DNA of 64,000 nucleotides from Clostridium sp. AM33-3 (GTDB lineage Bacteria > Bacillota > Clostridia > Lachnospirales > Lachnospiraceae), in the NCBI RefSeq assembly GCF_003480315.1, contig NZ_QUIV01000013.1:25508-89507 (forward strand). Reading direction: 5' to 3'. The notes below the pieces were generated by a model that saw nothing but the letters and a program-made list of their open reading frames with translations, was not told the DNA's origin and ran no database searches. The number at the start of each line of letters is the position of its first letter. Position 1 is the stretch's first letter. Below, piece after piece: positions 1-33,954 of the stretch. The translations under genes and the position numbers were made by a program.

Positions 1-886
1 ACGCCAGGACGAGCTCGGGCAGCTGTCCCAATCCGTCGGGCAGCTGCGGCTGGCCTTACAGCGGCTGGATATTCTGCGCCGGGAGGTCATCGCCAACGTC
101 TCCCATGAGCTGCGCTCCCCGTTAGCTCTCATCACCGGCTATGCGGAGATGGTGCGGGACATCACCTGGAAAGATGACGAGCTGCGCAATGAAAATCTGA
201 ATCTCATCATCAGCGAGTCCAACCGCATGAGCGAGATGGTAAACGACATTCTCGACTATTCCCAGTTTTCCGCCGGCTACAGCAGCTTAAAGAAGGAATG
301 GTGCGATTTACGGGATATCGTAACAGCCGAGCTGACCCGCTGCAGACAGGCAGCTGCCGAGCATGGCATCACGCTGACACTGCTGGTGACAGAGGAAACC
401 TCTGACCGCAGGTCATCTGCTTCGGCTGCTGATGTGCAATCCTCCCGGCCGTTTTTCTTTGAGGTCGATGCCCTGAAAATGAGCCAGGTCATGCGCAACC
501 TGCTAAACAATGCCATCAACCACACACCGGAAAATCAGGAAATCCGGATCTGTCTGACTCCGCAGCCGGCTGCGCGTTTTCAGGAGCTTGCCGGCGCACC
601 GATTCTGACTGGCAATACAGCTTCCTTCACCGGCGACACATCGGCAGAAGCAGCTTTTTCCGTTTCCTGCTGCCTTGTCGAGGTCATCAATCCCGGTGAT
701 CCGATTCCCGAAGAGGACCGTGCTATCATCTGGGAGCGCTACCAGCGCAGCCAGCACCAGAACGGGCGCAGGCTCGGGACCGGCATCGGACTTTCCATTG
801 TCAGCACGATCCTAAAGGCACATCAGATGCCGTACGGAGTGGACTGCCAAAATGGTTATAATGATTTCTGGTTTTTGTGCCGTTGA
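1..886 (+). CDS. sensor histidine kinase, C-terminal part (5' truncated by window edge)
   Basis: The frame is open from base 2, so the gene enters from outside the window. What remains is the transmitter of a two-component sensor kinase. A helical linker leads to the H-box VSHELRSPL, whose phospho-accepting His is encoded at 104-106. The N-box MRNLLNNAINHTP and the glycine-rich GTGIGLSIV of the HATPase_c domain follow. The kinase would autophosphorylate on His and pass phosphate to a response regulator, presumably encoded upstream. The sensor and membrane parts are missing, so the signal is unknown. The region between H-box and N-box is long and rich in Ser/Ala. The 3' end overlaps the convergent hydrolase gene by 31 bases. 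The family call is secure; the specific role is unknown. Confidence 0.9.
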   Translation, partial: RQDELGQLSQSVGQLRLALQRLDILRREVIANVSHELRSPLALITGYAEMVRDITWKDDELRNENLNLIISESNRMSEMVNDILDYSQFSAGYSSLKKEWCDLRDIVTAELTRCRQAAAEHGITLTLLVTEETSDRRSSASAADVQSSRPFFFEVDALKMSQVMRNLLNNAINHTPENQEIRICLTPQPAARFQELAGAPILTGNTASFTGDTSAEAAFSVSCCLVEVINPGDPIPEEDRAIIWERYQRSQHQNGRRLGTGIGLSIVSTILKAHQMPYGVDCQNGYNDFWFLCR

Positions 887-1791
887 ATGATTTCTTTCAT
901 GAAACGGTCTGCCGCATCCACAGCCTCCGGTGTCCAGAACTCGGAACCGCCGTGGTCCGCGCCGTCCACCAGATACAACGTTGCTTCTTTTCCGCATTCC
1001 TTTAACTTCTTATATAAACGCACACTCTGATAGGGACTCACCTTGCGGTCCTTGGTTCCGTGCATGATCCACACAGGCGGGAGCTTAGTCTCCGGGCGGA
1101 TATAAGTCACAGCCGTTGCCCGGGCTGCAAGCTCCGGATGCTCTCTTAAGTTTGCTCCCACCTCCATGCCTTCCGGGCTGGTCTCCAGATGATGCTCCAA
1201 TGTATCCGGGAAATCATCCATCTCTGTCATGCTTACCGCACCGTAGTAATCCAGGATTCCCATGACATCTGCAGATACTCCCGGATATACGGAGGCATCC
1301 AGCCACGGCTCCTGATCTGCCAGAGCTGCAAACACGGCGGTATGGCCGCCTGAGGAACAGCCGCCCAGGAAAAAGTTTTCCCCGTCCAGATGGTAATCTG
1401 CCGCATGCAGGCGCATAAAGCGGACTGCATTTCTGGCATCCTGAATCGGTGCCGGAAAATGGGCAATTCCGGAATGACGATACTGCACCACAGCTACCAC
1501 ATATCCGCGGGCAGCCAGTCTCGCATAATGCGGGCAGCTCTTATACACATCCTGTACGCCCCAGGCAGACCCCTGCACAAACACAAAACATGGATGAAGC
1601 TTTTCCGGCTCGTTTCTGGTATATGGCTCCAGAATCTGAAGCACCAGCGTATGACCGTCCACTTCTGCATACGGAATATCATGCCAATGGTAAACTCCCG
1701 GCTCATCTCCGGTGGTCGGGATATGGATTGCCCCTTCCACCTCTTCGGTCAGTCCCGGATATTCCTCATATTCCCACACTTTTACTTCCAT
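856..1791 (-). CDS. alpha/beta hydrolase, esterase/acetyl-esterase type
   Basis: A cytosolic 311-residue serine hydrolase with no signal peptide. An oxyanion-hole loop VFVQGSAWG replaces the usual HGGG. The nucleophile elbow is GGCSSGGH (Ser in GxSxGG), followed by the acid region WIMHGTKDRK and the catalytic His in DGADHGG. This layout matches the BD-FAE/acetyl-esterase family, which cleaves small carboxylic esters or amides. ATG start with AAGGAG ten bases upstream. It is the last gene of the GntR-led cluster, 36 bases after the ferredoxin subunit, so it may release or process a substrate of the redox enzymes, but this is inference. Its 3' end runs into the convergent kinase gene. The substrate is not predictable. 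Confidence 0.85.
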   Translation of the reverse strand: MEVKVWEYEEYPGLTEEVEGAIHIPTTGDEPGVYHWHDIPYAEVDGHTLVLQILEPYTRNEPEKLHPCFVFVQGSAWGVQDVYKSCPHYARLAARGYVVAVVQYRHSGIAHFPAPIQDARNAVRFMRLHAADYHLDGENFFLGGCSSGGHTAVFAALADQEPWLDASVYPGVSADVMGILDYYGAVSMTEMDDFPDTLEHHLETSPEGMEVGANLREHPELAARATAVTYIRPETKLPPVWIMHGTKDRKVSPYQSVRLYKKLKECGKEATLYLVDGADHGGSEFWTPEAVDAADRFMKEIIQRHKNQKSL

Positions 1792-1827
1792 CTATTTTAT
1801 TCTCCTTTCTACTGCTGCCGTCCCTGC

Positions 1828-2352
1828 CTATACCTGGGCCTTCAGCATCTGCATACTGGTCATACGCAGGGAATGCTCCTTCGGGATCTGTTCCTCCGGT
1901 GCTTCCAGATCAACCAGCTTCAATGCTCCAAACGGGCAGGCCTTGACGCAGGCCGGAAGCATACCTTGATGTACCCGCACATAGCAGCCGTCACATTTGA
2001 TCATCTTTCCATTTTCTCCGAAGGATGGAATTCCGTACGGACAGGCCATGGCACAGCTGTGACAGCCAATACAGTTTGTGGTATCATAAACCGTAAGATT
2101 TGTCTCCGGGTCTTTCCTGAGACAGGCACTCGGACAGCCGGTGATGCAGGGCGCATCCTCACAGTGCATACAGGCTAAGGAGAGCCGGTGATAACTGACA
2201 CGGTTATTCTTTTCAAGCTCCATATCGAAAATATTACGGTACGGGCGCTGTCCTTCCCTGACTTCATAATCATTCTGGTCCATACAGGCTACCGCGCAGG
2301 CACCGCAGGCCACACATTTGCTCAGATCGAGATCGATCGCGTATTTTTTCAC
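1828..2352 (-). CDS. four-cluster 4Fe-4S ferredoxin subunit (DmsB/PhsB-like electron transfer subunit)
   Basis: A 174-residue iron-sulfur protein with four cysteine groups: CVACGACAVAC, CMHCEDAPCITGCPS, CIGCHSCAMACP and CDGCYV with CVKACPFGA. That is sixteen Cys ligands for four [4Fe-4S] clusters, the layout of the B subunits of DMSO-reductase-family enzymes. It should carry electrons to or from the molybdopterin subunit encoded just upstream. The start is GTG at 2352, overlapping the TGA of that gene in GTGA, with GAAGGTG ahead of it, so the two subunits are probably translationally coupled. There is no signal peptide or membrane anchor, so the complex should be cytosolic. Family assignment is firm; the physiological reaction is not known. 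Confidence 0.92.
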   Translation of the reverse strand: MKKYAIDLDLSKCVACGACAVACMDQNDYEVREGQRPYRNIFDMELEKNNRVSYHRLSLACMHCEDAPCITGCPSACLRKDPETNLTVYDTTNCIGCHSCAMACPYGIPSFGENGKMIKCDGCYVRVHQGMLPACVKACPFGALKLVDLEAPEEQIPKEHSLRMTSMQMLKAQV

Positions 2353-4484
2353 TGCTGCACCTTCTTTCTCATTCCACAGCGCGTGGAATTGTATGCCGGG
2401 AAACCGGAATAAGGATCCACATGCGTACCAGACATCAGGGAATTGACATCTGCCTCCGAATATCCATGATAGAAAAAGACCACAGATTTTGGAACCTTAT
2501 GACTCGGCATAGCCTTTACGCAGATACAGCCGCGTTCCGTATAAAGTTCCATGTCATCTCCGGCTTCAATGCCCAGTTCCTTTGCATCCTCCACAGACAG
2601 CTCCGCTGTCGGATCCGGTCTTAAGCTGCGTGCCCATTTGACCTTATGAAGACGGGAATGGATCGCATTCGGAATACGCCCGCCGGAACAGAGCTGGTAC
2701 GGATAAAGCTCCGGATCTGCCTCATCAAGCGGCTCGCAGTAGGTCGGAAGCGGATCCAGGTGCCATTCCGGATGAGATGCAATGAGCTCCGAATACAGTT
2801 CAAACTTTCCGGTCGGTGTCAGAAGTCCCCGCTCCAGATGCTCACCCGGAGCAGATTTTTTTACATTCGGTACCTTAATCGGAACATCACTGTTCTTCAG
2901 TTCCTCCACGGTAATGTCAAGATCACGGAGAATGAATTCCAGGTTTTTCTCATAGCCTGCTTCCAGCTCCTCATCGCCCAGACCAAGCTTTTTTGCCAGC
3001 TCCGCGATGATCTCCGTATCGGATTTACTCTCTCCCACCCGGTCAATGGCCGGTTTCGTATACCATGCATAGCAACCTGGATAGGTTTCCAGCTCACCGC
3101 GCTCATAGGAGGTGCAGACCGGAAGAACGAGATCCGCAAGCATCGCCGTATCCGTCAGGAACAGATCGGTATCTACAAAATAATCCAGCTTCAGCAATGC
3201 CTCTTTCACATACTGGTCATCCGGCAGCATCCGGTAATTCATTCCCATAGCAAAGAGCGCCTTAACCGGATACGGTTTTTCTTCCATGATCTGTCTTGCC
3301 AGATCCACACACTGCATCTCCTTTTCCATATGATACCACAGTGGAAAACGCTCTGCTCCTACCGCCGGTTTCGCATTCTCAGGCTCTGTCACCTCTGCAA
3401 ATTCTTCATCCCGGGTCACAAATCCGGCCATCTGGTGTGTAAAGCTGTGAAGTCCCGGAAGCTGACCGCCTTCCCGGTCATAATTGCCGGTCAGTGCCAG
3501 AAGCGCCATGATCGCACGATAATTCTGGAAGCCGTTTTTATGGTGGGGAATTGGGGCACTATTTTCATTGATACACATAGAGCTGCTTTCCCAAATCATC
3601 CGACAAGCCTCAAGCACCTGTTCATAAGGAACTCCGGTCAGAGCTTCGACATTACTTTCATTAAATTGCTTTACATACGCCTTATATTCTTCAAATCCAT
3701 GCACATACTTCTCAATATACGCTGCATCAATCCATCCGTTTTCTATCAGGATGTTTCCCATGCACAAAGCCAGAGCGCCATCGGTTCCGGGATACGGACG
3801 AAGGTAGAGATCACAAAGGCGCTCGACCGCAGGAGTGATTTTAGGATCAACAATAATAACCTTCATGCCCTTTTCACGGCGTTTTTCAATCGCAGTTGCC
3901 TTGGCATATCCGGAAAAATACGGATTCATAGCCCAGCCTAAATACAGATCTGTATGCGCCATATCCGGACGCGCCAGCTGTCCGGACGCCGTTTTCCAGG
4001 CCATCCAGCCGGCTGTCATACAAGTACTGGATTCCGTGCCGAAATTCATGGTTCCAAAGGAATGTGCCAGGCGCCGCAGCCACGGACGGTACCACTTATT
4101 ATAGCCGCCGAAAAACGCCACTGCATCTGCTCCGTATTCTGCCTTGATCCCATTTAACCGGGAAGCGATCTCATCATAGGCCTGTTCCCAGGTGATCGGT
4201 TCAAATTTTCCTTCTCCCCGCTCGCCAACCCGCTTAAGCGGAGTCAGGATCCGGTCCTCCCGGTAAGCAAACTGACGGCCGGAAAGTCCCTTCACACACA
4301 TGCGCCCCTTACTCTGCGGATGCTCGTCCATCCCCTCAAGCTTGACCATTCTGCCGTCCCTGACGTATGCATTTACACCGCAGTTATTGGCCGGACTGCA
4401 GATTGCGCACACCGTATGGCAAACCCGGATCCCGGTTTCCTCACACGGAATTTTTGCTTTGATTAATGCTTCCAAACTATCCAT
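2349..4484 (-). CDS. molybdopterin (bis-MGD) oxidoreductase, DMSO reductase family, catalytic subunit
   Basis: 711 residues from the ATG at 4484, chosen because GAGGAG lies nine bases upstream; the longer frame has no ribosome site. N-terminal Cys22, Cys26, Cys29, Cys35 and, after 27 residues, Cys63 in GRMCVKG form the [4Fe-4S] domain. The catalytic domain has ESSTCMTAGW with Cys155 at the Mo/W ligand position. The C-terminal MGD-binding domain includes LCSGGRIPNAIHSR and ends GFPAYNSTRCG. There is no twin-arginine signal, so the enzyme is cytosolic, unlike most respiratory relatives. It overlaps the FAD reductase upstream by eight bases and the ferredoxin downstream by four, implying a three-part complex. 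Relatives include polysulfide/thiosulfate reductases and gut catechol dehydroxylases; the substrate is open. Confidence 0.9.
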   Translation of the reverse strand: MDSLEALIKAKIPCEETGIRVCHTVCAICSPANNCGVNAYVRDGRMVKLEGMDEHPQSKGRMCVKGLSGRQFAYREDRILTPLKRVGERGEGKFEPITWEQAYDEIASRLNGIKAEYGADAVAFFGGYNKWYRPWLRRLAHSFGTMNFGTESSTCMTAGWMAWKTASGQLARPDMAHTDLYLGWAMNPYFSGYAKATAIEKRREKGMKVIIVDPKITPAVERLCDLYLRPYPGTDGALALCMGNILIENGWIDAAYIEKYVHGFEEYKAYVKQFNESNVEALTGVPYEQVLEACRMIWESSSMCINENSAPIPHHKNGFQNYRAIMALLALTGNYDREGGQLPGLHSFTHQMAGFVTRDEEFAEVTEPENAKPAVGAERFPLWYHMEKEMQCVDLARQIMEEKPYPVKALFAMGMNYRMLPDDQYVKEALLKLDYFVDTDLFLTDTAMLADLVLPVCTSYERGELETYPGCYAWYTKPAIDRVGESKSDTEIIAELAKKLGLGDEELEAGYEKNLEFILRDLDITVEELKNSDVPIKVPNVKKSAPGEHLERGLLTPTGKFELYSELIASHPEWHLDPLPTYCEPLDEADPELYPYQLCSGGRIPNAIHSRLHKVKWARSLRPDPTAELSVEDAKELGIEAGDDMELYTERGCICVKAMPSHKVPKSVVFFYHGYSEADVNSLMSGTHVDPYSGFPAYNSTRCGMRKKVQQ

Positions 4485-5736
4485 GTAATTTCTCCTCAAT
4501 CTCATCAATGAATGCTTCCGACAGACCAGCCTTCTGAAGCATAGCCCTCTGGTAATCCGGAAGGACAAACTCTTCTCCCGCAAACAGCCGCAGCATATAA
4601 TTTTTCACGATACCGCTGATCCGGTAATTGTCCAGGATATTGGCACCCACGATCCGTTTTCCATCCAGCACCAGGCGTACATACAGGCTGTCTTCCAGGC
4701 TTCCGTACTCCAGCACCTCCCCCGTCAGACGGTTATCACCAAAGCCGATAAAATCCATGTTCATAAAATGTGTGATATTATGCAGGATGTTTCCGTGATA
4801 CGCGACACCCTGACCTGCCATGTTGGCTCCTGCCGTCTCGCCCTGTCGGTTGGCATTGGCCCAGAGACCGATGATCTGATTCTGTCCGCTCTCCAGGTTG
4901 TTTCCCTCACAGCAATCTCCGGCTGCATACACACCCGGAACTGAGGTTTCCATATGATCGTTGACCGTAATACCGCGGACGATTGCCACCTCATCCTTCA
5001 CAGGATCCGTGATGGCTCTTGTGCCAATGCAGAGTCCGACAATATCTGCCGGAATCCGGCTTCCATCTGTCAGTACGGCGATTTTCTGCCCATCCTCCTG
5101 CTCCATGTGGTCGATCGTTGCTCCGAATTTCAGATGAACGCCCTGAGCCTCCACCCGCTTTTCAATCTCCGCGGACACCTCCGGATAAGCTGCCAGCGGA
5201 AAAATATGAGGTGCCAGATCTAAAAGCCAGGTTTCAATGCCAAATTTATGCAGCACCTCCACCACCTTGATTCCGGCCATGGATGCACCGATCACAACAG
5301 CATGGCGGACATTCTTCTGTTTCAGACGTTCTTTGAAGCGGATGGAATCCTCCACCGTCCGCATCAGAAAAGCATCCTCCGGATCAAGTCCCTTCACCGG
5401 CGGTGCAAACGCACGCGCACCGGTCGCGATCAGAATCCGGTCATACTGCTTTGTCTGCTGCTTCGTCTCCACCAGATGCTCTTTTGCATGTACCCGGATG
5501 ACCGGCTCCTGAATCAGGTGAAACGATATCTCCTTCCGGATCTGATCCAGATCCCCAAACGGAAACAGGCCGTCAAACTCCAGCTTTCCGAACGCATAGT
5601 ATGTTGTCAGCATCGGATTGTACGGTGCCCGGCTGGTATTGCTGTATACATCGATCTCCCCCTCCTGGTCACAGGCGCGGATCGCTTTAACCGCATGATA
5701 ACCTGCCGTGCCGAATCCTACCACAGCATAGTTCAT
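4477..5736 (-). CDS. NAD(P)H/FAD-dependent oxidoreductase (pyridine nucleotide-disulfide class I fold)
   Basis: 419 residues from the ATG at 5736, preceded by AGGAGG; the longer frame lacks a ribosome site. FAD binding is shown by the N-terminal VVGFGTAGYHA, by ILIATGAR and by the late VPGVYAAGDCC. The NAD(P)-binding Rossmann motif is VVIGASMAGIKVVE near residues 160-175. The position of the redox Cys of CoA-disulfide reductases is not Cys (APYNPMLTTY), so it resembles rubredoxin or nitrite-reductase-type flavoproteins that pass hydride electrons to an iron-sulfur partner. It overlaps the molybdoenzyme gene by eight bases, so it is the likely NAD(P)H entry point for that enzyme. The electron path is inferred from gene order. 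Confidence 0.88.
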   Translation of the reverse strand: MNYAVVGFGTAGYHAVKAIRACDQEGEIDVYSNTSRAPYNPMLTTYYAFGKLEFDGLFPFGDLDQIRKEISFHLIQEPVIRVHAKEHLVETKQQTKQYDRILIATGARAFAPPVKGLDPEDAFLMRTVEDSIRFKERLKQKNVRHAVVIGASMAGIKVVEVLHKFGIETWLLDLAPHIFPLAAYPEVSAEIEKRVEAQGVHLKFGATIDHMEQEDGQKIAVLTDGSRIPADIVGLCIGTRAITDPVKDEVAIVRGITVNDHMETSVPGVYAAGDCCEGNNLESGQNQIIGLWANANRQGETAGANMAGQGVAYHGNILHNITHFMNMDFIGFGDNRLTGEVLEYGSLEDSLYVRLVLDGKRIVGANILDNYRISGIVKNYMLRLFAGEEFVLPDYQRAMLQKAGLSEAFIDEIEEKLHG

Positions 5737-5758
5737 GTTTTTCCTCCTCTCAAATACC

Positions 5759-5784
5759 GAAAAAGCCACTGAAATCCAGTGACT
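5759..5784 (-). terminator. weak intrinsic terminator or attenuator inside the GntR-led cluster
   Basis: On the minus strand GTCACTG, a five-base loop and CAGTGGC form a seven-pair stem (one G-U) followed by TTTTT. It sits 35 bases after the permease stop and ends 23 bases before the flavoprotein start. No promoter fits between it and that start, so partial read-through, that is attenuation, is the likely outcome. Confidence 0.6.
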
Positions 5785-5818
5785 TATCCGATTATCTTTT
5801 TTCAGATTTTCAAGTCCT

Positions 5819-7135
5819 TTATTGTGCGCTCTGCTGTTCCAGCTTTGCTTTCACATTCTTATAACGGATCAGCATGATGATGATGGAAACCAGAATGAAG
5901 AGACCGATATACAGGTAATGCTTCGGCTTCAGACTGGAGAGGCTTACAAAGGAAGTAACAATGGTAACTGTCAGGCATACACAAAGAACTGCATGCAGTT
6001 TCTTTGGTTCTATATGCAATACAGACTTTTCATAAGCTTCCGGGAACAGACTCGGAAGTCTCCAGCATGCACAGATCGTAAACAGGCCGGTCAGTTTGCT
6101 ACAGCCGGTACCCATATTGGAAATATCGGTGGTATCCATGCCGGTTAAGATCGGGATCAGGCCCACAATAAAGAAGAAGAATAACAGCAGAACCGGAGTT
6201 CCGTTTTTATTTTCCTTTGCGCAGATTTCCGGAAGCCATCCATCCATGGCAGCTCTCTGAAGAGAACGGGTAGTCCAGGACAGTGTTCCGTTCAGGGTTG
6301 TTAACAGGGCGAACCATGCACCGCCGATAACAAAAAACAGATAAACCGGTGCAGGGAATACTTCTTTTGCTACAACCGAAATATTGACACCTGCTACCTT
6401 ATCTAACGGAAGCACGCAGGCAGCTACAATACCGACAAATGCATAAAAGATTGCAACGATCGCGGTGGAAAGGATCATGGCCTTCGGAATATTCTTTCCC
6501 GGATTCTCGATTTCTCCGCCATTCTCAGCCAGGAAGCTTGCGCCGCCACATGCAAAGGACAGAAGCGTTGCGCCCTGCAGGAAGTTTTTCAGGCCGTGAG
6601 GCATGATGTTGGATGCGGAAAATTCCAGTGCAGACCAGTCAACCTTCGGAAGACCGAATACGATATAAATGAACAGGGAAATCAGAAGCAGGGAAACCAT
6701 CACCTTCTGAACCTTCGCAGAGGTTTTCAGACCGATCAGGTTTACGATCACTGCCGCAGTCAGGGCGCCAACCGCAACCACGGTCTGGTTTACTGACGGA
6801 AAGATCACGCCAACATAGCTTGCAAAGCCGATTGCGAACGTGGATACCAACACCTGCTGCAAAATAAACATCAGAAGAAATACAAATGCGATCCTCGGCC
6901 CCAAAAGCTTCTTGGCATACACATAGCTTCCGCCGGTTGCCGGCATACTGGAAGAAAGTGTTGCCATCGGGATCAGGCTGATCAGTGAGATGATCGCTGC
7001 AAGAAAATATCCGTACGGAGCGCCGTGTCCAGTCAGTCCGATTACGATTGCTGTCAGTACAAACACACCGGAACCTACGATCTGGCCAATACAAAAGCCC
7101 ATGCAGTCCCAAAAATTCAGTTTTTTCGTCTCCAT
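5819..7135 (-). CDS. APC-superfamily amino acid permease
   Basis: 438 residues with about twelve hydrophobic segments. The family signature is at the N-terminus: GFCIGQIVGSGVFVL in TM1, then MPATGGSYVYAK in TM3. TM6 carries the conserved GGASFLAENGGEIENPGKN region. It is a secondary transporter, probably amino acid:H+ symport or antiport, in the cytoplasmic membrane. The start codon lies three bases after the stop of the PLP-lyase gene, so both are surely co-transcribed; import of an amino acid that the lyase and the redox enzymes act on is the simple reading. A weak stem-loop follows the stop. The exact substrate cannot be read from the sequence. Confidence 0.88.
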   Translation of the reverse strand: METKKLNFWDCMGFCIGQIVGSGVFVLTAIVIGLTGHGAPYGYFLAAIISLISLIPMATLSSSMPATGGSYVYAKKLLGPRIAFVFLLMFILQQVLVSTFAIGFASYVGVIFPSVNQTVVAVGALTAAVIVNLIGLKTSAKVQKVMVSLLLISLFIYIVFGLPKVDWSALEFSASNIMPHGLKNFLQGATLLSFACGGASFLAENGGEIENPGKNIPKAMILSTAIVAIFYAFVGIVAACVLPLDKVAGVNISVVAKEVFPAPVYLFFVIGGAWFALLTTLNGTLSWTTRSLQRAAMDGWLPEICAKENKNGTPVLLLFFFFIVGLIPILTGMDTTDISNMGTGCSKLTGLFTICACWRLPSLFPEAYEKSVLHIEPKKLHAVLCVCLTVTIVTSFVSLSSLKPKHYLYIGLFILVSIIIMLIRYKNVKAKLEQQSAQ

Positions 7136-7138
7136 TTG

Positions 7139-8320
7139 TTATACCCCTTTTCTCCAGTCTGATACAAACTGTACCAGTTTCTCCATACCCTCTTCGAGCC
7201 TTTTGCGCGGACAGCCAAAGTTGAACCGCAGAAAATGCTCTCCGTCTCCGCCATAGGAAGTACCGCCTCCCACTGCAATGCCATAATGATCCGCCAGTGT
7301 TTTCTGGATTTCATCGGAGGTCATTCCCAGTGCGCTGCAGTCCAGCCACATCAGATACGTTCCTTCCGGCTTCACCGGCTTGATCTCCGGCGCGTGCACG
7401 GCAAGATAATGAATGATAAACTCTGCATTTTCTGTCAGATACGCATTCTGCTGGTCCACCCACTCATCACCGTAGGTGTAGCAGGCCTCGATTGCCGCGT
7501 TAGACAGGCAGTTCGGGCTCATAAGCCATGCTTCCCGAAGAGATGCCTCCTGTCTCTTTTTGTATTCCGGATTCGGAATGATGCTGCAGGATGAGTGCAG
7601 ACCGGCCATATTGAAGGTCTTGCTGATTGCAGTGTAAACGATCATCCTGTCATATACGTCTGCAAAGCAGGCTGCCGAGGTATACTGATTGCCGTAGAGG
7701 GCCACATCACCGTGGATCTCATCGGAGAACAGCCATACCGAATATTTTCTGCACAGCATAACCACCCGTTCCACCTCATCCCGCGTCCAGACACGTCCGA
7801 CCGGGTTATGGGGATTGCAGAATATCATAGCCTTCACCCCACCGGCCAGCTTCCTTTCGAAATCTTCCCAGTTAATGCTGTAGCGTCCGTCCTGATAGAT
7901 CAGCGGACAGTCTACCTCTTTTCGCTCCTGGGTGCGGATCGCCACAAAAAACGGATCATACACCGGTGTAAAGACAAGCACCTGATCTCCCGGCTCTGTA
8001 AAGCCTCTGATTGAAAACCAGATGGATGTCACGACGCCTTCTGACGGTGAAAATGCCTCCACCGGAAGATCCACATGATGACGGCGCTGATACCATGCCC
8101 GGACCGTCTCATTGGTCCGTTTTCCGGTTGACGTATAACCAAACAGCGGATGTTCCAGACGCTTCTGAATTGCAGTCACGGCCTCCGGAAGTGTTCCGAA
8201 ATCCGTATCTGCGATCCAGAAGGGGATCAGCCCGGTCGGAACGCCAAACTTAAACTGACGATCCCATTTAATGGAATCGGTATCCACACGATCCCAAACC
8301 TTATCAAAATCGTATTTCAT
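7139..8320 (-). CDS. MalY/PatB family PLP-dependent aminotransferase/C-S lyase
   Basis: 393 residues from the ATG at 8320, with GGAGG seven bases upstream; a further 46 codons in frame lack a ribosome site. Fold type I PLP enzyme: IPFWIADTDF and YTSTGKRTNE near the N-terminus, the substrate/PLP loop CNPHNPVGRVW, SDEIHGDVAL with the PLP-pyridine Asp, the Schiff-base Lys in AISKTFNMAGLHSS, and the carboxylate-binding Arg in LRFNFGCPRKR. The DEIHGDVAL and NMAGLH blocks are typical of MalY/PatB beta-C-S lyases, which split cystathionine or S-substituted cysteines to a thiol, pyruvate and ammonia. It is the second gene of the unit, 83 bases after gntR, and abuts the permease. True aminotransferase activity cannot be excluded. 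Confidence 0.88.
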   Translation of the reverse strand: MKYDFDKVWDRVDTDSIKWDRQFKFGVPTGLIPFWIADTDFGTLPEAVTAIQKRLEHPLFGYTSTGKRTNETVRAWYQRRHHVDLPVEAFSPSEGVVTSIWFSIRGFTEPGDQVLVFTPVYDPFFVAIRTQERKEVDCPLIYQDGRYSINWEDFERKLAGGVKAMIFCNPHNPVGRVWTRDEVERVVMLCRKYSVWLFSDEIHGDVALYGNQYTSAACFADVYDRMIVYTAISKTFNMAGLHSSCSIIPNPEYKKRQEASLREAWLMSPNCLSNAAIEACYTYGDEWVDQQNAYLTENAEFIIHYLAVHAPEIKPVKPEGTYLMWLDCSALGMTSDEIQKTLADHYGIAVGGGTSYGGDGEHFLRFNFGCPRKRLEEGMEKLVQFVSDWRKGV

Positions 8321-8403
8321 TTTGTACCTCCACCCCTTAAAGGTTTTATGTTCCATTTTTCCGGAAAGCCGGGCCCTGGTTCTCTGAAAAAATATCACCT
8401 GTT

Positions 8404-9135
8404 TTAACGGCAGAATTCTTCGAAATAATGCTGATACGTCGCATAGATCCAGTCGCAATGCTGAAGCATATAAAAGAATGCATATTCCGGATCATGGTCT
8501 TTGACTGCCTTCAGAATATTTCCATGCTGCTTTCGTATTTCTGCCTTGTAGGATTCCTGCTGCACCGGAACGATCAGCGGAAGCGCTGTGATCGCGTTGG
8601 ACGGCGGCACCGTTGCTTCCCAGATCTGCTTCATGAGCGGATTTCTCAGGATTTCCCACAGACAGCCATGGAAAGACTGAAGACCGGTTCCCTTCTGGAT
8701 CCGGATAGACGGCTCTGCCTGCTCTGCAGTCTCAGAATCATGCTCAAATGCATATTCCAGCTGACGGATATCCTGCTCTGTTGCCATGATGGCTGCCTGC
8801 TTTGCGATAGAAGGCTCAATGACGCGTCTGGCCAGCGTAGACTGTTCAAACAAATGCCAGTAGGTTTCTGCCTGATCCCGGAGTTCGCCCGGATCCAGAA
8901 TGCTTTTCCAGTCCACCGCGACGATGCTGCCCTTTCCCTTCCGGGTTTCAATGATGCCGCTGTCACTGAGCATTTTCAAAGCCTGCCGGACTGTCACACG
9001 GCTGACTCCCATCAGCTCCATAAGCTCCTTCTCACTTGGGATCAGATCTCCCTTTTTGTATTCTCCGCTCCGCACAGAATCCTTAATGCGGTTAAATACC
9101 TGTTCATACAGTGGATTACTTGATAATTTGTTCAC
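8404..9135 (-). CDS. GntR (FadR-type) transcriptional regulator
   Basis: 243 residues if translated from GTG at 9135, which has AAGGAGG five bases before it. ATGs at 9153 and 9183 are in frame but have poorer sites, and the latter would place the promoter inside the gene. A GntR winged helix comes first (GDLIPSEKELMELMGVSRVTVRQALKMLS, residues about 29-57). An all-helical FCD-type effector domain follows, with RRVIEPSIAKQAA and the late HGNILKAVKDHD metal/ligand region. It should repress or activate its own operon in response to a small organic acid or amino acid. A perfect inverted repeat overlaps its -10 box, arguing for autoregulation. It is the first gene of the cluster reaching 856. Confidence 0.92.
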   Translation of the reverse strand: MNKLSSNPLYEQVFNRIKDSVRSGEYKKGDLIPSEKELMELMGVSRVTVRQALKMLSDSGIIETRKGKGSIVAVDWKSILDPGELRDQAETYWHLFEQSTLARRVIEPSIAKQAAIMATEQDIRQLEYAFEHDSETAEQAEPSIRIQKGTGLQSFHGCLWEILRNPLMKQIWEATVPPSNAITALPLIVPVQQESYKAEIRKQHGNILKAVKDHDPEYAFFYMLQHCDWIYATYQHYFEEFCR

Positions 9136-9157
9136 AATATCCTCCTTTTTCATCTCC

Positions 9158-9179
9158 TGTATGCTGTTCTCAGCATACA
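9158..9179 (-). promoter_or_regulatory. probable GntR operator, perfect inverted repeat
   Basis: TGTATGCTG, four bases, CAGCATACA: nine-base arms with no mismatch. It covers the -10 box of the gntR promoter and ends 23 bases before the GTG start. GntR/FadR proteins bind such short palindromes; binding by this protein is inferred. Confidence 0.75.
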
Positions 9180-9200
9180 ACATGTAATATAATAAGTCAA
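9172..9200 (-). promoter_or_regulatory. sigma-A-type promoter of the gntR-led operon
   Basis: TTGACT at 9200-9195 and TATGCT at 9177-9172 with a 17-base spacer, read on the minus strand. The -10 lies inside the palindrome, so a bound regulator would block polymerase. Confidence 0.75.
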
Positions 9201-13497: not shown

Positions 13498-14757
13498 CTA
13501 CACCAAAGCACCCTGTTTTTTCAAGATTTTCTGGATATGTTCTATATTTACAGCACCATCCAGGGCCTGGCAGGCTGCACCGACACCCGCCGCATGACCT
13601 GTTGCAAAACAGGTTCCCATAACACGGACGGCTGCAAAAGCAGCCTCGTCTGCAGATATCATTCTTCCTGCGCCATACAGGTTTCTGATATTTTCAGACT
13701 GCAGGGCACCCAGCGGAATATCAAAATAGCTACCTTCCTTTACTTCCAGATAGGTTGCCATCTTATTGATATCCTTGTGGATCTCCGGCTTCCAGCCGCC
13801 GCGGGCCACACTGTTATCCCGTTTTCTTCTGGTAAGCACATCATCCACGGTGATCGTCTCTTTTCCAACCAGTTTTCTGGTCTCACGGAACCCGAGTGCC
13901 GGTCCTATCACAGCCAACTCTGCATGCTCCATACCCGGCATATAGGTTCTTAATGCCTGTACATAGCTTAGTACCTGCTTTCTGGTCTCGCGCTCCATTC
14001 TGGTAAGTGCCTCTGCGTTCAGTGCATCCGGGATAATGCTCGGAAGAAGAACTCCTACAATATTAGATCCTTCTTTTTTTAAGATAAAGCCCTTCTCCCT
14101 TGTGAGGTTGGGGATTCCGTCTTCTTTTGCCTTCACAACGGCACGCTCCACCGCAGCCGGAGACATATCGCAGCTGGTGTCCACGCCGCTTAAGCGAAAC
14201 GGCATGGTTGCCGCCTGCGGGCATCCGTCATCGCCGCCCCATACCAGGTGTGCCCCGGCAAGGCGGGCAAGATTGGCGTCTCCGGATGCATCCACAAAGG
14301 CCTTCGCAGCTACCGTAAAGGTACCCTCATCATCCACACAGTGAATTGCCGTAATGGTTCCGTTTTCCGTATCTGCACCAATTACAGACGTATGCAGGAG
14401 GTAATCCACCCGTTCTTTCTCCAGCAGATTGTCCATGGCACATTTTAAATACTCAGGCTGAAAATTAATATTGCGGTTTCCGGTTGCAGAAATAACGTAG
14501 TCCACAGTCGGACCAAGTGCCTCCATCTCATTTAACACAAGCCGACCGACTCCTTCTACAACCCGTACCGGATTTTCCCCACAGGTGTAAAACCCGCAGA
14601 AAGCGCTGACTCCGGAATTGGTAGCTTCACCGCCAAGATAAGCATTCCGCTCGATCAGAAGCGTTTTCGCTCCCGTCTTCGCAGCTCCAACTGCTGCAGA
14701 TACTCCGGCAGTTCCTCCTCCAACAACGACTACGTCATACTGCTGCAAACGTTCCAT
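13498..14757 (-). CDS. FAD-dependent oxidoreductase (FAD_oxidored/succinate dehydrogenase-like fold)
   Basis: 419 residues, ATG at 14757 with AAGGAG. The N-terminal dinucleotide fold is VVVGGGTAGVSAAVGAAKTG with LLIERNAYLGGEAT. Further FAD contacts are FVDASGDANLARLAG and the C-terminal GRMISADEAAFAAVRVMGTC with GHAAGVGAA. This is the PF12831-type flavoprotein family, often found on catabolic operons for plant-derived or alicyclic compounds. There is no signal peptide. It sits between a DASS transporter (21 bases upstream) and a chorismate-mutase-like protein, under a divergent LysR regulator. Oxidation or dehydrogenation of an imported ring acid is plausible. Exact chemistry is unknown. Confidence 0.85.
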   Translation of the reverse strand: MERLQQYDVVVVGGGTAGVSAAVGAAKTGAKTLLIERNAYLGGEATNSGVSAFCGFYTCGENPVRVVEGVGRLVLNEMEALGPTVDYVISATGNRNINFQPEYLKCAMDNLLEKERVDYLLHTSVIGADTENGTITAIHCVDDEGTFTVAAKAFVDASGDANLARLAGAHLVWGGDDGCPQAATMPFRLSGVDTSCDMSPAAVERAVVKAKEDGIPNLTREKGFILKKEGSNIVGVLLPSIIPDALNAEALTRMERETRKQVLSYVQALRTYMPGMEHAELAVIGPALGFRETRKLVGKETITVDDVLTRRKRDNSVARGGWKPEIHKDINKMATYLEVKEGSYFDIPLGALQSENIRNLYGAGRMISADEAAFAAVRVMGTCFATGHAAGVGAACQALDGAVNIEHIQKILKKQGALV

Positions 14758-14778
14758 AATCCTCTATACTCCTTTTTC

Positions 14779-16239
14779 TTAACCAATGATGAGTGTTCCC
14801 AGCGGATATGCAAAGAAGGTCAGCACAACCAGTGCCATCAGTGCAAAAATTCCGCCCCAGATAAACATGTCTTTGGTCGTGGTCCATCCGGAACCGATTG
14901 CTACGGTGTTGATGGTACTCTGACCTGCCGGTGTCATGTTGCTGACAGCGGCTGCAAAACCAACCATGCATACAACTGCGCCAACGCTTACTGCTCCTGC
15001 CGGAAGTGCAGTTAAAACAGACAGTGCTACTGCGCTTACTACGGTTGTGGTAACAATGTTGGAAGAGAAGTTTGTCTCAAGCAGTGCCCACAGCATAAAG
15101 AATAAGATCATGCCGGTAACCGGGAGTGCTGCAGTTAACGGAGACAGGGAAGCGGTCAGCCAGTCGCTGATTCCAATATCTGCGTTGGTTAAGCAGGAAC
15201 CAAGCCAGGTTGCCGCACCGGTCATCAGGATACTGCCCCACAGGATTCCTTTGGTTACGCCTTCCTTAAAGTTTAAGATACGCTCGCCATCTACTTTGGT
15301 GATAAAGAGAAGGATGCATCCTAATAACGGCGGCATTGCGGTAGACCAGCTGTTGATGGTCTTGTAAAGCTCCGGGAAGCTGCCCTTGATCAGGCTCGGG
15401 CCAACCCATAAGAATACAGTTAAACCTACTACAGAAAGAATAATTTTCTCTTTGGTATCTGCCTTTGGAACGGTTCCGCGCAGTCCCATTGCATTTTCCG
15501 GTTTGATCTCATGGATATCATCCGGACGGTAAATGAACTTAAACACCAGAATTAATAAGATGATCAGCAGAATGCCGGTCGGGATCCCCATTGCCATGTA
15601 TTGGAACTGGTTGACATCATTTCCGGTTGCTGCGGTGTAATAACCGATTGCCATGGTCGGCCATACATGTCCGATTGCGGTCATACCGGAGGAAAGGCTG
15701 ATGCAGAATGCCGTTCCCATCATGATCATATTTCCGGTTTTGCCGCCCTTCTTCACACCGAGTACCTGGAAGATATCCTCAAGGAAAGGCATAAATGCAA
15801 CGAACAGAACAGACGGGGATACGAATAACCCCATGAAGGTAACTGCCGCAAACAGGAAACATACAAAATACCACGGTCCCTTTCTTGCAATCTTATTGGT
15901 AATAAAAGATACCGTACACCGTCTTACAAAATTTGTCTTGGAAAGCGGATATACCAGCATAAAGGTAAAGATCAGGAACGCTACGGTCGTATTGCCGAAT
16001 GCGCCTGAAAAGGTTTTTGAAAAACCGAATGTCGGGATAAATCCAAGTGCCAGTAAGGTGATCATGCTCGGCCAGTCAATGGAAATGGTAATCCACATGA
16101 GCAGGGAACCGAAGAATACGCCAAGTACTCCGATTGCCTCAGAGGAAAGACCTCCAAATGGCGGTACAAATCTTGACCCGATCATGATTGCCAGCGACAG
16201 GATCAAAAAGATTGTGTCTTTGCTGCTTTTGTTGTTCAT
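14779..16239 (-). CDS. DASS/SLC13-family anion:Na+ symporter
   Basis: 486 residues with about eleven to twelve membrane segments. DASS hallmarks are the two SNT-like loops: SPSVLFVAFMPFLEDIF in the first half and LLETNFSSNIVTTTVVSA in the second, plus AVSNMTPAGQSTINTVA near the end. Members import di- and tricarboxylates, sulfate or related organic acids with sodium. It is the first gene of a three-gene unit with a flavoprotein and a chorismate-mutase-like protein, read from a promoter overlapping that of the divergent lysR gene, so it is probably the inducible uptake system for the compound they degrade. A ring carboxylate such as shikimate or quinate is a guess from the neighbours. Confidence 0.88.
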   Translation of the reverse strand: MNNKSSKDTIFLILSLAIMIGSRFVPPFGGLSSEAIGVLGVFFGSLLMWITISIDWPSMITLLALGFIPTFGFSKTFSGAFGNTTVAFLIFTFMLVYPLSKTNFVRRCTVSFITNKIARKGPWYFVCFLFAAVTFMGLFVSPSVLFVAFMPFLEDIFQVLGVKKGGKTGNMIMMGTAFCISLSSGMTAIGHVWPTMAIGYYTAATGNDVNQFQYMAMGIPTGILLIILLILVFKFIYRPDDIHEIKPENAMGLRGTVPKADTKEKIILSVVGLTVFLWVGPSLIKGSFPELYKTINSWSTAMPPLLGCILLFITKVDGERILNFKEGVTKGILWGSILMTGAATWLGSCLTNADIGISDWLTASLSPLTAALPVTGMILFFMLWALLETNFSSNIVTTTVVSAVALSVLTALPAGAVSVGAVVCMVGFAAAVSNMTPAGQSTINTVAIGSGWTTTKDMFIWGGIFALMALVVLTFFAYPLGTLIIG

Positions 16240-16293
16240 AATGAAACCCCTTTCTCCTATTGGTGTTCTTTTGTTTTGTATTTCCTTGTAGCG

Positions 16294-16333
16294 TTATGAT
16301 ATAAAGTTTATTGACATTTGTAAAATATCATAA
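16294..16333. promoter_or_regulatory. inverted repeat, candidate LysR binding region
   Basis: TTATGATAT at 16294-16302 and ATATCATAA at 16325-16333 are perfect complements 22 bases apart, spanning both divergent promoters. This is a typical location for LysR control; binding is inferred. Confidence 0.6.
16296..16324 (-). promoter_or_regulatory. promoter of the DASS transporter operon
   Basis: TTTACA at 16324-16319 and TATCAT at 16301-16296 with 17 bases between, on the minus strand; about 50 bases from start point to the ATG at 16239. Confidence 0.6.
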
Positions 16334-16339
16334 TATTAT
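16311..16339 (+). promoter_or_regulatory. promoter of the divergent lysR-type gene
   Basis: TTGACA at 16311-16316, 17 bases, TATTAT at 16334-16339. It overlaps the minus-strand promoter, so expression of the two units should compete. The leader is about 85 bases. Confidence 0.7.
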
Positions 16340-16430
16340 CAAATCAATAAGTTTTTCCTATATCATTGGATTTTTTTAGAAACATTTTACAATTTTTTTA
16401 TTTCTTACCAGGCAAAGGAGTTCGTTTCTC

Positions 16431-17336
16431 ATGCAAATGCAACAATTACGCTATTTTCTTGAAATCGCCAAAGAGAAAAACATCTCTGCGGCAGCCAAGA
16501 ACCTGTATCTTTCCCAACCCTCCCTCTCCCAGCAGATCCGGAAACTGGAAGAGGAACTGGAGGTGCCGCTTCTCATCCGCCACTCCAAATCTGTCTCCCT
16601 GACAGATGCCGGAGAACAGTTTGCCCACCATGCCCGAAGAATCCTCGGCGGAGTCGACCAGCTCTCTGAACTCATGCACAAGCAAAGCTTATTAGAGGCC
16701 GGAACCTTAAAGATCGGTCTGTTATGGATTGCCGGATACACAAACCTGCTTCAGATTTTAAGCGACTACCACCGCCTGTATCCGGGTCTGAATTATTCCT
16801 TCAGCGTAAACGGCAGCGCCCACTTACAGCAGATGCTTTTAGACCGCAAAATCCATGCCGCATTCATCATCGGCACGGAGGAGCAGCTGGATCAGGAACC
16901 GGATCTTTACTCCTGCAAAATTCAGGAAGACTTTTACTCCGTAATCGTATCCCGGCGCAATCCACTGGCATCCAGAAAAAGCCTTTCTGTTCTGGATTTA
17001 AGGGACTCTCCCATCATCATGCCCTCTCCTGCTTCCGCACTGCGAAAAAGCCTGGACCGGATTTTTGAGGAAGCTGGCATCACACCGAATATTCTCTGCG
17101 AAACCAGCCAGTCCGATCTGGTTATCCAGCTGGCCGCTCATGATCTCGGAGTCGGTATTTCCTCCAAAAGCATCGCCACAAGCGCACAGGATGGCACATA
17201 CGCCATCGTGCCCTTTGAGAGCCGCCTTCACCGCTCCATTTATTATGTAACGTTAAAAGAGCTTCTGGATTATCCATCCATCCGCTCTTTTACAAGGTAT
17301 GTGAAACGTTATCAGTTGGAAAATAAAGCATTATGA
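16431..17336 (+). CDS. LysR-family transcriptional regulator
   Basis: 301 residues. N-terminal LysR helix-turn-helix: LRYFLEIAKEKNISAAAKNL and LSQPSLSQQIRKLEEEL, then LLIRHSKSVSLTDAGE. The effector domain is a type-2 periplasmic-binding fold (about 90-295). ATG at 16431 with AAAGGAG ten bases upstream; a second Met two codons on is an alternative. Divergent from the DASS transporter operon and convergent with the YdiB-like dehydrogenase, whose stop is eleven bases from this one. It probably activates the transporter operon when a ring acid or its product binds, and represses itself. The effector is not known. Confidence 0.92.
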   Translation: MQMQQLRYFLEIAKEKNISAAAKNLYLSQPSLSQQIRKLEEELEVPLLIRHSKSVSLTDAGEQFAHHARRILGGVDQLSELMHKQSLLEAGTLKIGLLWIAGYTNLLQILSDYHRLYPGLNYSFSVNGSAHLQQMLLDRKIHAAFIIGTEEQLDQEPDLYSCKIQEDFYSVIVSRRNPLASRKSLSVLDLRDSPIIMPSPASALRKSLDRIFEEAGITPNILCETSQSDLVIQLAAHDLGVGISSKSIATSAQDGTYAIVPFESRLHRSIYYVTLKELLDYPSIRSFTRYVKRYQLENKAL

Positions 17337-31992: not shown

Positions 31993-33870
31993 TTAATCCG
32001 CAGTCATCTTCAGAAGCACGGCCAGCCGTGTCACACCGCGCTTTTCCAGTGCATTCGGCACATAGAAATTGCTCTCAAACCGCAGGGTCACCGGCTGATA
32101 CGGATTCACCTGGATCGTGCACTCCTCATTCTGCTCCGTAAAATTAATGTACTCGGCCGGCTCACCGTCCACATACACGGTCAGCCACTGGTCATCCGTG
32201 AGATCCCGCGGATAGTTGAAGCTTAAATGAATTTCTCCTGTGCTTCCGGCCATCACCTGGACGGATGCCCTCTCATCTAACCAGCCATCATCATAAAAGC
32301 CGTAGATCGGGCGGCACTTAAACAGGGATGCCGCATGGGTGATATCCTGGAACCGGTTGTTCTCCGGATCCTCCTGGATCACCAGCATGTCATCGGTAAT
32401 CAGACCAATGTCACGCAGATCCTTAATATGAACGACCCTCACACAGTCATCGCGGTTTAACCGGTCGAATACCCGGAAAAACTCCGCCTGGGTGAAATCA
32501 TCCATCTCGAATTTGTCCCCTACAATGTAGATGGTCTTTCCAAAGATCCCGACACCGTACTGTCCGTAGGTTTCTTCTGCCAGAGCATTATAGTGCTCCT
32601 GGTCAGCCCAGTAATAAAGGTTCGGAAACAGGCCGCGGTAATAATGCTCCACCGGAAGCATGAACAGCACATAGAGCGTGAACAGGCTTAAGTACGGAAG
32701 TGCCTGGATCCAGCGCCCACGCTTTGCCATCTGCTCCGTCAGACTGCCGTACATCCAGGAAAGGAATAGCAGCGCTGCCGCCAGGGAAACATAGACCCAG
32801 CGCATCTCCACGCGGATGGTCACGCTGGAGCAGACGATACAGGCTCCGATAAATGCCACAAACAGGAATGCCTTCTGCAAGTACGGAACCATCTTCTTTC
32901 CCTTCCGGATCACACGGATCAGAAAGGCTAGCACCAGCATCGCGATCATCAGATCTGCCAGGGCAATGAGAATGATCACCCACAGCGGCGCTTCCCGGAA
33001 GTTCTGTCCATTTAAGTGCTCCGGTCCTGCATTGATTCCGAAGATATAGGCAATCTGGCTTAACACAAAGTGCAGCACAGAGCTCACGGAAATGGTATCT
33101 ACCACGTCGGTTCCGCCGGTCCCCGGAGGGGAGATGGTGCCGATAAAAACAAACCGCAGAAGCTGGATCAGGGCAAATCCAACAGTTGGAGCCGCCCAGA
33201 GCTTCCAGTTCCTTGACAGCCGAAAGATCAGGGAAAAGTAAAACAGCGGAAGCAACACCATATAGCGCTCATGCACCAGGCAGACACAGAAATAAAGAAC
33301 CACCGCCAGGTAAAACTTCCGGTTCGTAGCCGCCTCATCTGTTTCGCCCAGAAACTCCAGCAGGAAATACAGGATTCCCAGCGCCATCCACATGGCCATG
33401 GTCTCCATCAGCCCCAGCGCCTGGCCGATCTGGTAGTAGGACATACGGGACATCAGAAACATGACCGCACATAAAATTCCCACATACGCAGAATGGCTGA
33501 ACCGTTTTGCCATGCGGTAAAGATTGTACGCAAGACAGGAGTTCAGCACAATGTTAAAGGGCACATACCAGTTTACATGGGTGCCGAAAAGTTTCATTTC
33601 TGTCCATGCCGCCAGATTGTAAAGGGCACGGAAACGTGTCCCGCCGCTGGTAAACACCGCCGCGAAGAACGGGTTATCGTTAAAGCAGAACCACTGATAG
33701 AGATCGTCCATGTAAAGACCCTTGATCTCCATGTGACGGTTGATCACAAACGTAAAGGCAGTCAGCAGGATCAGGACCAGGGCTTCCGTCTTCCAGACAT
33801 CTGCCCGTTTCGTCCACCGGTATTGCATGGCCTCCGCCCTCTGCTTTCCGCTAAATTCCATCTTTTCCAT
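31993..33870 (-). CDS. large polytopic membrane protein, putative GT-C-type glycosyltransferase or glycan membrane enzyme
   Basis: 625 residues from the ATG at 33870 (TTGGAG seven bases upstream; 25 further codons in frame lack a site). After a basic start come about ten to eleven membrane helices (residues 30-440), with a short first loop containing IKGLYMDDLYQWF; an acidic DD just after TM1 is common in GT-C transferases. The C-terminal 180 residues are soluble, with FNYPRDLTDDQWLTVYVDG suggesting a beta-rich lectin-like domain. I do not recognise the family exactly. Placed between a GT2 gene and rfbF, it may move or attach a lipid-linked sugar outside the membrane. Function is inferred only from topology and position. 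Confidence 0.65.
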   Translation of the reverse strand: MEKMEFSGKQRAEAMQYRWTKRADVWKTEALVLILLTAFTFVINRHMEIKGLYMDDLYQWFCFNDNPFFAAVFTSGGTRFRALYNLAAWTEMKLFGTHVNWYVPFNIVLNSCLAYNLYRMAKRFSHSAYVGILCAVMFLMSRMSYYQIGQALGLMETMAMWMALGILYFLLEFLGETDEAATNRKFYLAVVLYFCVCLVHERYMVLLPLFYFSLIFRLSRNWKLWAAPTVGFALIQLLRFVFIGTISPPGTGGTDVVDTISVSSVLHFVLSQIAYIFGINAGPEHLNGQNFREAPLWVIILIALADLMIAMLVLAFLIRVIRKGKKMVPYLQKAFLFVAFIGACIVCSSVTIRVEMRWVYVSLAAALLFLSWMYGSLTEQMAKRGRWIQALPYLSLFTLYVLFMLPVEHYYRGLFPNLYYWADQEHYNALAEETYGQYGVGIFGKTIYIVGDKFEMDDFTQAEFFRVFDRLNRDDCVRVVHIKDLRDIGLITDDMLVIQEDPENNRFQDITHAASLFKCRPIYGFYDDGWLDERASVQVMAGSTGEIHLSFNYPRDLTDDQWLTVYVDGEPAEYINFTEQNEECTIQVNPYQPVTLRFESNFYVPNALEKRGVTRLAVLLKMTAD

Positions 33871-33954
33871 AATTATACTCCAATTTTTTGTTGCAGTCCG
33901 GATGGCCCTGAAGCACGGCGCTTTCCTTTGCTGCGTTCCGGTCATTGCAGGCTC

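Follow-up and report, generated by a model that had tools for sequence, protein, structure and literature searches.

The window analyzed here is a 64,000-nt stretch of the Clostridium sp. AM33-3 genome (contig NZ_QUIV01000013.1), and our subject is a gene cluster near its beginning that joins a pyridoxal phosphate (PLP)-dependent C-S lyase with a molybdoenzyme carrying bis-molybdopterin guanine dinucleotide (bis-MGD). Seven genes, all on the minus strand, follow one another in the order GntR regulator, lyase, APC permease, flavoprotein, molybdoenzyme, polyferredoxin, and alpha/beta hydrolase. An original prediction, made from the letters of the window, had named these seven genes, and they were present with the corrected coordinates given below (aa, amino acids).

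8404..9183, minus strand: GntR/FCD regulator, 259 aa (PF00392, 72.7 bits; PF07729, 47.9 bits)
7139..8320, minus strand: predicted PatB/MalY-type PLP beta C-S lyase, 393 aa (TIGR04350, 392 bits; cutoff 340)
5819..7135, minus strand: APC amino-acid permease, 438 aa (PF13520, 148.6 bits)
5737..5818, minus strand: gap between permease and flavoprotein with a strong predicted RNA hairpin at about 5755-5790 (fold z -3.5)
4477..5736, minus strand: flavin adenine dinucleotide (FAD)/NAD(P)H oxidoreductase, 419 aa, the probable electron-input subunit (PF07992, 173 bits)
2349..4484, minus strand: bis-MGD molybdoenzyme, 711 aa (PF00384, PF01568, PF04879)
1828..2352, minus strand: four-cluster (DmsB-like) polyferredoxin, 174 aa, 17 Cys (PF13247, 75 bits)
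856..1791, minus strand: alpha/beta hydrolase (BD-FAE), 311 aa, probably outside the core (PF20434, 151 bits)

From upstream to downstream, the genes were separated by 83 nt, 3 nt, 82 nt, an 8-nt overlap, a 4-nt overlap, and 36 nt. The earlier description was of tiny gaps or overlaps, but two of the gaps are not tiny. The flavoprotein gene starts with an ATG behind GAGGAGG, the molybdoenzyme gene starts at position 4484, giving 711 aa rather than a 744-aa open reading frame (ORF), and the ferredoxin gene starts with a GTG.

An alignment of 21 molybdoenzymes was used to search genome contigs, and the 80 loci described below are the best 80 of at least 548. In a tree of 82 molybdoenzymes, the window's enzyme fell in a group of 20 (support of 90 in the SH-like approximate likelihood ratio test, SH-aLRT). 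A lyase gene was located near the molybdoenzyme in 18 of the 20 clade rows, the exceptions being L001 and L003, compared to 4 of the 62 rows elsewhere (L028, L036, L056, and L074), and the lyase-near label required 7 changes on the tree compared to 19.7 in shuffles. Within 6.5 kb of the molybdoenzyme, 21 of the 80 loci carried a lyase, 12 a permease, and 10 a GntR gene. Lyase and redox genes formed the commonest core within the clade, and their pairing spanned Lachnospiraceae and Oscillospiraceae despite different transporters and regulators. Because the gene order recurs in other genera and the lyase-molybdoenzyme linkage is seen across genomes, the arrangement goes beyond chance.

Genome samples of 397 and 396 genomes were drawn from the families of [Clostridium] asparagiforme (G004) and of the genome with the nearest relative (G001), including these two and other locus genomes. 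A molybdoenzyme was detected at E ≤ 1e-150 in 19/397 and 12/396 genomes, and a clade member in 4 and 4; the trait is therefore patchy. Three new clade members were obtained (L083, L084, and L108), each with a lyase 1.3-2.8 kb away, which raised the total to 21/23. Among the 793 genomes, seven had both genes, one had the lyase alone (G041), one had the molybdoenzyme alone (G001), and 784 had neither. The Fisher p value of 1.7e-15 ignores relatedness, and four of the seven genomes were known from the discovery loci; the fresh cases were three for co-occurrence and one (G041) against.

The lyase passed the family cutoff of TIGR04350, and its best PDB match was PatB (6qp3), aligned over the whole length. 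K234 and the C-N-P-H-N-P stretch were invariant in 17 lyase rows. The protein is thus predicted to act as a PatB/MalY-type beta C-S lyase. Lyase homologues at E ≤ 1e-30 numbered from 1 to 16 in each of eight genomes. A quick tree of 51 lyases grouped the 18 linked lyases with the L056 lyase, which is also beside a molybdoenzyme, in one clade (SH-aLRT 100), and 28 other lyases of seven genomes all fell outside it. As L056 is nested in the group, the 18 linked lyases alone do not make up one side of a branch; a topology holding them together was not rejected (approximately unbiased test, p-AU 0.32).

A profile built from 17 linked lyases gave 627-700 bits for a lyase in 8/793 genomes, four of which (G004, G005, G270, and G668) had supplied profile rows, and the next match reached 516 bits. 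D122 and T98 were present in 25/25 dedicated lyases, compared to 5/70 and 6/70 others, respectively. W265 was also present in 25/25 and was not among the five commonest letters in the 70 others; the 25 rows count two genomes twice and include one row from G041. The three fixed residues suggest that the dedicated lyases have a substrate of their own, and our guess from the neighboring motifs is that these residues face it. With 18/20 clade rows, a dedicated lyase subfamily, and the co-occurrence, the proposal that the lyase and an NAD(P)H-linked molybdoenzyme belong together held up, and a function shared by lyase and reductase is well supported, unlike any particular substrate.

The molybdoenzyme belongs to the dimethyl sulfoxide (DMSO) reductase superfamily with bis-MGD, as indicated by its three Pfam domains, the [4Fe-4S] cysteines, and a protein metal ligand. 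The cluster motif is C26-x2-C29-x5-C35-x27-C63, and its spacing was kept in 80 rows of the 82-row molybdoenzyme alignment, to which the residue counts for this enzyme refer. C26 and C29 were found in 81/82 rows (the exception, L023, has a deletion), and C35, C63, and the metal ligand C155 in 82/82. The H314/H315 pair was nearly fixed (80/82 and 76/82). Genes resembling MobA near L001, L017, and L039, and one resembling MobA-MobB near L025, are consistent with the bis-MGD cofactor. Compared to solved structures, the profile scored 262 bits with acetylene hydratase (2e7z), 254 bits with FdhF, and 251 bits with PsrA. These scores are about equal, and therefore no subfamily was assigned. Flavoprotein, molybdoenzyme, and ferredoxin all scored below every NCBIfam cutoff among the best 25 models listed for each. 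The enzyme apparently represents an uncharacterised family of gut Clostridia. No signal-like start was seen by eye in the molybdoenzyme or the ferredoxin, and both are therefore read as probably cytosolic.

A flavoprotein homologue was found within 6 kb of the molybdoenzyme in 67/80 loci and a ferredoxin homologue in 77/80; in two of the misses, L027 and L042, both genes were about 7 kb off. The closest NCBIfam model of the flavoprotein was PadH-like (195 bits compared to a cutoff of 475), and among PDB entries it resembled the FAD subunit 8c0z_E of an aldehyde oxidoreductase. An acidic residue in its second nucleotide-binding stretch argues for NADH, rather than NADPH, as the likely electron donor. 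The ferredoxin reached 124 bits on the DmsB model TIGR02951, below its cutoff of 214.

The reading we prefer, with a probability of roughly 0.45, takes the cluster as an inducible unit for the catabolism of a beta-substituted alanine, in which the lyase acts first and the leaving group is then reduced with NADH. The permease would import the substrate, a cysteine-S-conjugate-like amino acid, and the PatB-type lyase would cut its beta bond to release pyruvate, ammonia, and the leaving group. A soluble complex of the FAD protein, the four-cluster ferredoxin, and the [4Fe-4S]/Mo-bis-MGD subunit would take electrons from NADH, reduce the leaving group, and regenerate NAD+. The most likely leaving groups would be hydroxylated (hetero)aromatics and sulfur species containing an S-S bond. 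The genomic comparison supports the gene content, the pairing of the genes, the existence of a dedicated lyase subfamily, and the separability of the two halves; complex formation, the reductive direction, the lyase-then-reductase order, and the nature of the leaving group we infer. Canavanine-type cleavage was also considered and was dropped, as the canavanine-cleaving lyase belongs to another PLP family.

The metal ligand bears on the order of the two steps. The original prediction had favored an S- or N-oxidised amino acid, which the molybdoenzyme would reduce before the lyase cleaves the product; the imported compound could be a sulfoxide, an N-oxide, or a hydroxylated amino acid. The linkage of lyase and reductase agrees with this order as well, and one report describes a faecal E. 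coli isolate that reduces S-methylcysteine sulfoxide (PMC8137612), which shows that gut bacteria are capable of such a step. However, Cys was the ligand in 82/82 rows and the listed model scores were far under cutoff. The sulfoxide and N-oxide reductases DmsA, TorA, and BisC bind molybdenum through Ser, and the oxidised substrate is therefore weakened and was left unsupported. In addition, genome G041 has the lyase-permease unit but gave no molybdoenzyme match at E ≤ 1e-20, and the lyase may therefore work without a preceding reduction. Reduction before cleavage is somewhat unlikely on this evidence, and the lyase-first order was preferred because a lyase-permease unit exists without the reductase and Cys ligation disfavors sulfoxides.

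Formate dehydrogenases carry selenocysteine or Cys followed by His in the active site. Position 156 of the alignment was F, M, Y, or another residue, with His not among the six commonest letters, and the TIGR01591 score was 284 bits compared to a cutoff of 666. The molybdoenzyme thus lacks the residues that define formate dehydrogenases, as it lacks those of sulfoxide reductases and acetylene hydratase.

Thiosulfate/polysulfide reductase was the top match of a single-sequence PDB search (200 bits), and this result bears on a special case of the preferred reading, in which cystine, cysteine, or S-sulfocysteine is desulfurated and a soluble polysulfide, thiosulfate, or persulfide reductase forms H2S. 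PatB-family lyases do cleave cystine and cysteine, and PsrA also has a Cys ligand. Known thiosulfate/polysulfide reductases, however, possess a membrane anchor subunit and an export signal; the cluster contains no gene for such a membrane subunit, and the PhsA score was 267 bits compared to a cutoff of 694. Position 313, which aligned with Arg332 of PsrA, was variable, with no Arg among its six commonest letters. The similar profile scores for acetylene hydratase, FdhF, and PsrA also speak against this specific assignment, which we regard as unlikely.

The best profile match, acetylene hydratase, leads to aromatic substrates. Its catalytic Asp13 adjoins the second cluster Cys; in the 21-row alignment, S or C, and no Asp, follows C29. 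The molybdoenzyme could nevertheless act as catechol dehydroxylases or transhydroxylase do, and dehydroxylate or rearrange a (hetero)aromatic leaving group released, for instance, from plant amino acids resembling mimosine. Consistent with this idea, the redox genes of L028 are immediately preceded by UbiD and a UbiX-like flavoprotein (6631-8715), and a UbiX-like gene alone is near the molybdoenzyme in L019 (271-831); these neighbors hint at aromatic substrates in the two branches, both of which are outside the window's clade. To our knowledge, the human gut species among the hosts have no mimosine exposure. Catechol dehydroxylases are reported to be closest to acetylene hydratase (PMC7028382), and degradation of mimosine to 3,4-dihydroxypyridine (3,4-DHP) is described for rumen microbes (PMC12366334). 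Against the aromatic reading, another article gives less than 22% identity with catechol dehydroxylases for the two DMSO-reductase-family enzymes of E. bolteae (PMC12771579), which may or may not belong to the present family. An aromatic leaving group processed in this way appears quite unlikely.

Several observations weigh against a catabolic unit in which lyase and reductase act together. The nearest relative, L001 in genome G001, has a molybdoenzyme 78% identical to that of the window and shows GntR, flavoprotein, molybdoenzyme, and ferredoxin genes without lyase and permease at the locus; the single lyase of this genome is 35% identical and lies on another contig. L003 has no lyase nearby, and L003 and Faecalibacterium prausnitzii L008 have no adjacent flavoprotein. 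In L023 (9880-10065), flavoprotein and molybdoenzyme are in one 1114-aa frame, from which about 36 residues of the flavoprotein end and the first 26 residues of the molybdoenzyme, including two cluster cysteines, are lost; this copy looks broken or misassembled. Finally, in the wider family, most molybdoenzymes have quite different gene neighbors. The L023 fusion had been considered a sign of partnership and was dropped owing to the same losses.

In the converse case, the lyase and permease of G041 (L196) are accompanied by GntR and an MFS protein but by no redox genes; the lack of a molybdoenzyme match in this genome is an empty result that shows little. L001 and G041 together indicate that the two halves are separable. 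They could even be two independent units side by side, an amino-acid import and cleavage unit and a general redox module. Each half occurring alone would agree with this, as would the strong predicted hairpin that separates the two halves in the window and in 8/8 relatives folded, although not in L006. However, the pairing is kept in both families with exchanged transporters and regulators, the lyase clade is a dedicated one, and four loci that lack a permease have lyase-flavoprotein gaps of only 5-35 nt (starts extrapolated from alignments). A further lyase, L127, one of the 28 outside the clade, is located directly before a second module of flavoprotein, molybdoenzyme, and ferredoxin genes in [C.] asparagiforme (L100), whose molybdoenzyme is 54% identical and outside the window's clade. 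L127 groups with the L028 lyase (support 99), so a second lyase lineage also adjoins this molybdoenzyme family, as a separate pairing. Independence of the two halves is thus improbable.

The hairpin was analyzed in detail. The 82-nt permease-flavoprotein gap folded at -20.7 kcal/mol (z -3.5), and 1/200 shuffles was as stable. The same gap was unusually stable in all eight relatives folded (z -3.0 to -5.6, with 150-nt pieces for three), compared to two GntR-lyase gaps that were not unusual (z -0.2 and -1.0). In L006, the gap was 14 nt and such a hairpin was absent. A consensus terminator scan did not list the hairpin near 5759-5784, which the original prediction had read as a terminator. In the window, about 20-26 nt remain between hairpin and flavoprotein start; a promoter would not fit there, and the hairpin therefore more likely allows partial read-through or stabilises an mRNA end. 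The predicted hairpin itself was confirmed, but a full stop of transcription at this site is unlikely, also in view of the 5-35-nt gaps in four relatives.

The transporter is exchangeable within the clade. A permease homologue was near the molybdoenzyme in 11/19 clade loci, that of L009 being only 28% identical and divergently oriented, and GntR in 10/19. Opp-type ABC genes, with a LysR gene, take the place of the permease in L013, L020, L022, and L025, and DUF5058 is found in L023, so that the permease, earlier taken as part of the set, is not a fixed member. An M24 peptidase gene is present in L013, L020, and L022; the L025 sequence stops just past the ferredoxin gene.

Hydrolase membership, also part of the original prediction, is doubtful because no homologue was found at E ≤ 1e-8 in 117 loci, nor near the molybdoenzyme in any of the 80 loci (0/80). 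As it is not conserved, the hydrolase was dropped as a pathway enzyme. Its gene converges with a histidine-kinase-like ORF at 149-886, which may begin before the window, with an overlap of 31 nt.

Outside the clade, other partner sets were found. Twenty-one loci carried MmgE/PrpD (L027, L042, L043, L044, L051, L054, L055, L061-L063, L065-L068, L070-L073, L075, L076, and L079), frequently with DASS/TRAP transporters, and 20 of the 21 had octopine-DH-like, arylmalonate-decarboxylase-like, or ornithine-cyclodeaminase-like genes within 7.5 kb. These loci may represent a second undescribed pathway type. Other loci had an NhaC-type carrier, some of them together with a Crp regulator. In a sister clade, ABC_cobalt-like, Oxidored_molyb-like, and MobA-like genes follow the ferredoxin gene (L039:12617-14927 and similar loci). 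L047 (5923-12612) has molybdoenzyme and ferredoxin genes twice in tandem around the flavoprotein gene.

These differing neighbors imply that lyase chemistry is not the general purpose of the molybdoenzyme family. The original prediction would have failed if the redox genes were never found next to the lyase and permease; this is not so in the clade, although 58 of the 62 rows outside it had no lyase nearby. The module probably acts as a general redox device whose substrate is set by its partners, a view under which family membership says less about any one chemistry.

No match was found in the plasmid collection searched, and Rfam models returned nothing at the gathering score in the window and eight loci, including no molybdenum cofactor riboswitch and no T-box. 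Promoter-like and terminator-like counts were close to the shuffled expectation. Elsewhere in the window, an FAD_oxidored protein, a DASS-type transporter, and a divergent LysR regulator form a second small transport/redox unit at 13498-17336. A 650-aa ORF at 31993-33945 had no Pfam match at E ≤ 1e-5, with glycosyltransferase and Wzt-type ABC genes some kilobases off.

The pairing of lyase and molybdoenzyme in several gut Clostridia points to an undescribed metabolic pathway. More tentatively than for the unit itself, we suggest that the lyase and a soluble NADH-driven molybdenum reductase share the processing of a single beta-substituted alanine from the diet or the host: its alanine moiety would yield pyruvate and ammonia, and the remainder would be reduced as an electron sink. 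In this view, the redox module also serves other substrates together with at least three further partner sets. If true, cleavage of amino acids or conjugates in the gut would be tied to a soluble electron sink, with a possible bearing on the release of H2S, thiols, or phenols. Gut-Clostridia molybdoenzymes seem little characterised; according to a 2024 review, molybdenum-dependent dehydroxylases are known only from Eggerthella and Gordonibacter (PMC11574389). A literature search by title and abstract start, with subscription journals and preprints mostly outside its range, gave no description of this gene set among the papers listed. The defined lyase and molybdoenzyme set is present in the cultured [Clostridium] asparagiforme DSM 15981 and Faecalibacterium prausnitzii APC923/61-1 (L006 and L008).

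Four groups of known systems were compared to the cluster. With the PatB/MalY C-S lyases (cystalysin, PatB, MalY, and cysteine-S-conjugate beta-lyases), the cluster lyase shares the family cutoff, K234, the C-N-P-H-N-P stretch, and a full-length PatB alignment, but it has its own clade, its own fixed residues, and a molybdoenzyme partner. PsrABC and PhsABC likewise combine a DMSO reductase superfamily Mo subunit with a four-cluster ferredoxin, and PsrA shares the Cys ligand; in the cluster, a flavoprotein takes the place of the membrane subunit, the motif has x5 compared to x3, and the molybdoenzyme is about equally far from other subfamilies.

For acetylene hydratase and the catechol dehydroxylases, the likeness lies in 2e7z as the best profile match, whereas Asp13 of acetylene hydratase has no equivalent in the 21-row alignment and its partner genes differ. 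AorABC and phenylglyoxylate dehydrogenase resemble the cluster in the PadH-like/8c0z_E-like flavoprotein and in the layout of catalytic subunit, electron wire, and NADH subunit. The catalytic subunit of the cluster, however, is of the bis-MGD type and not a tungsten aldehyde oxidoreductase or a thiamine enzyme.

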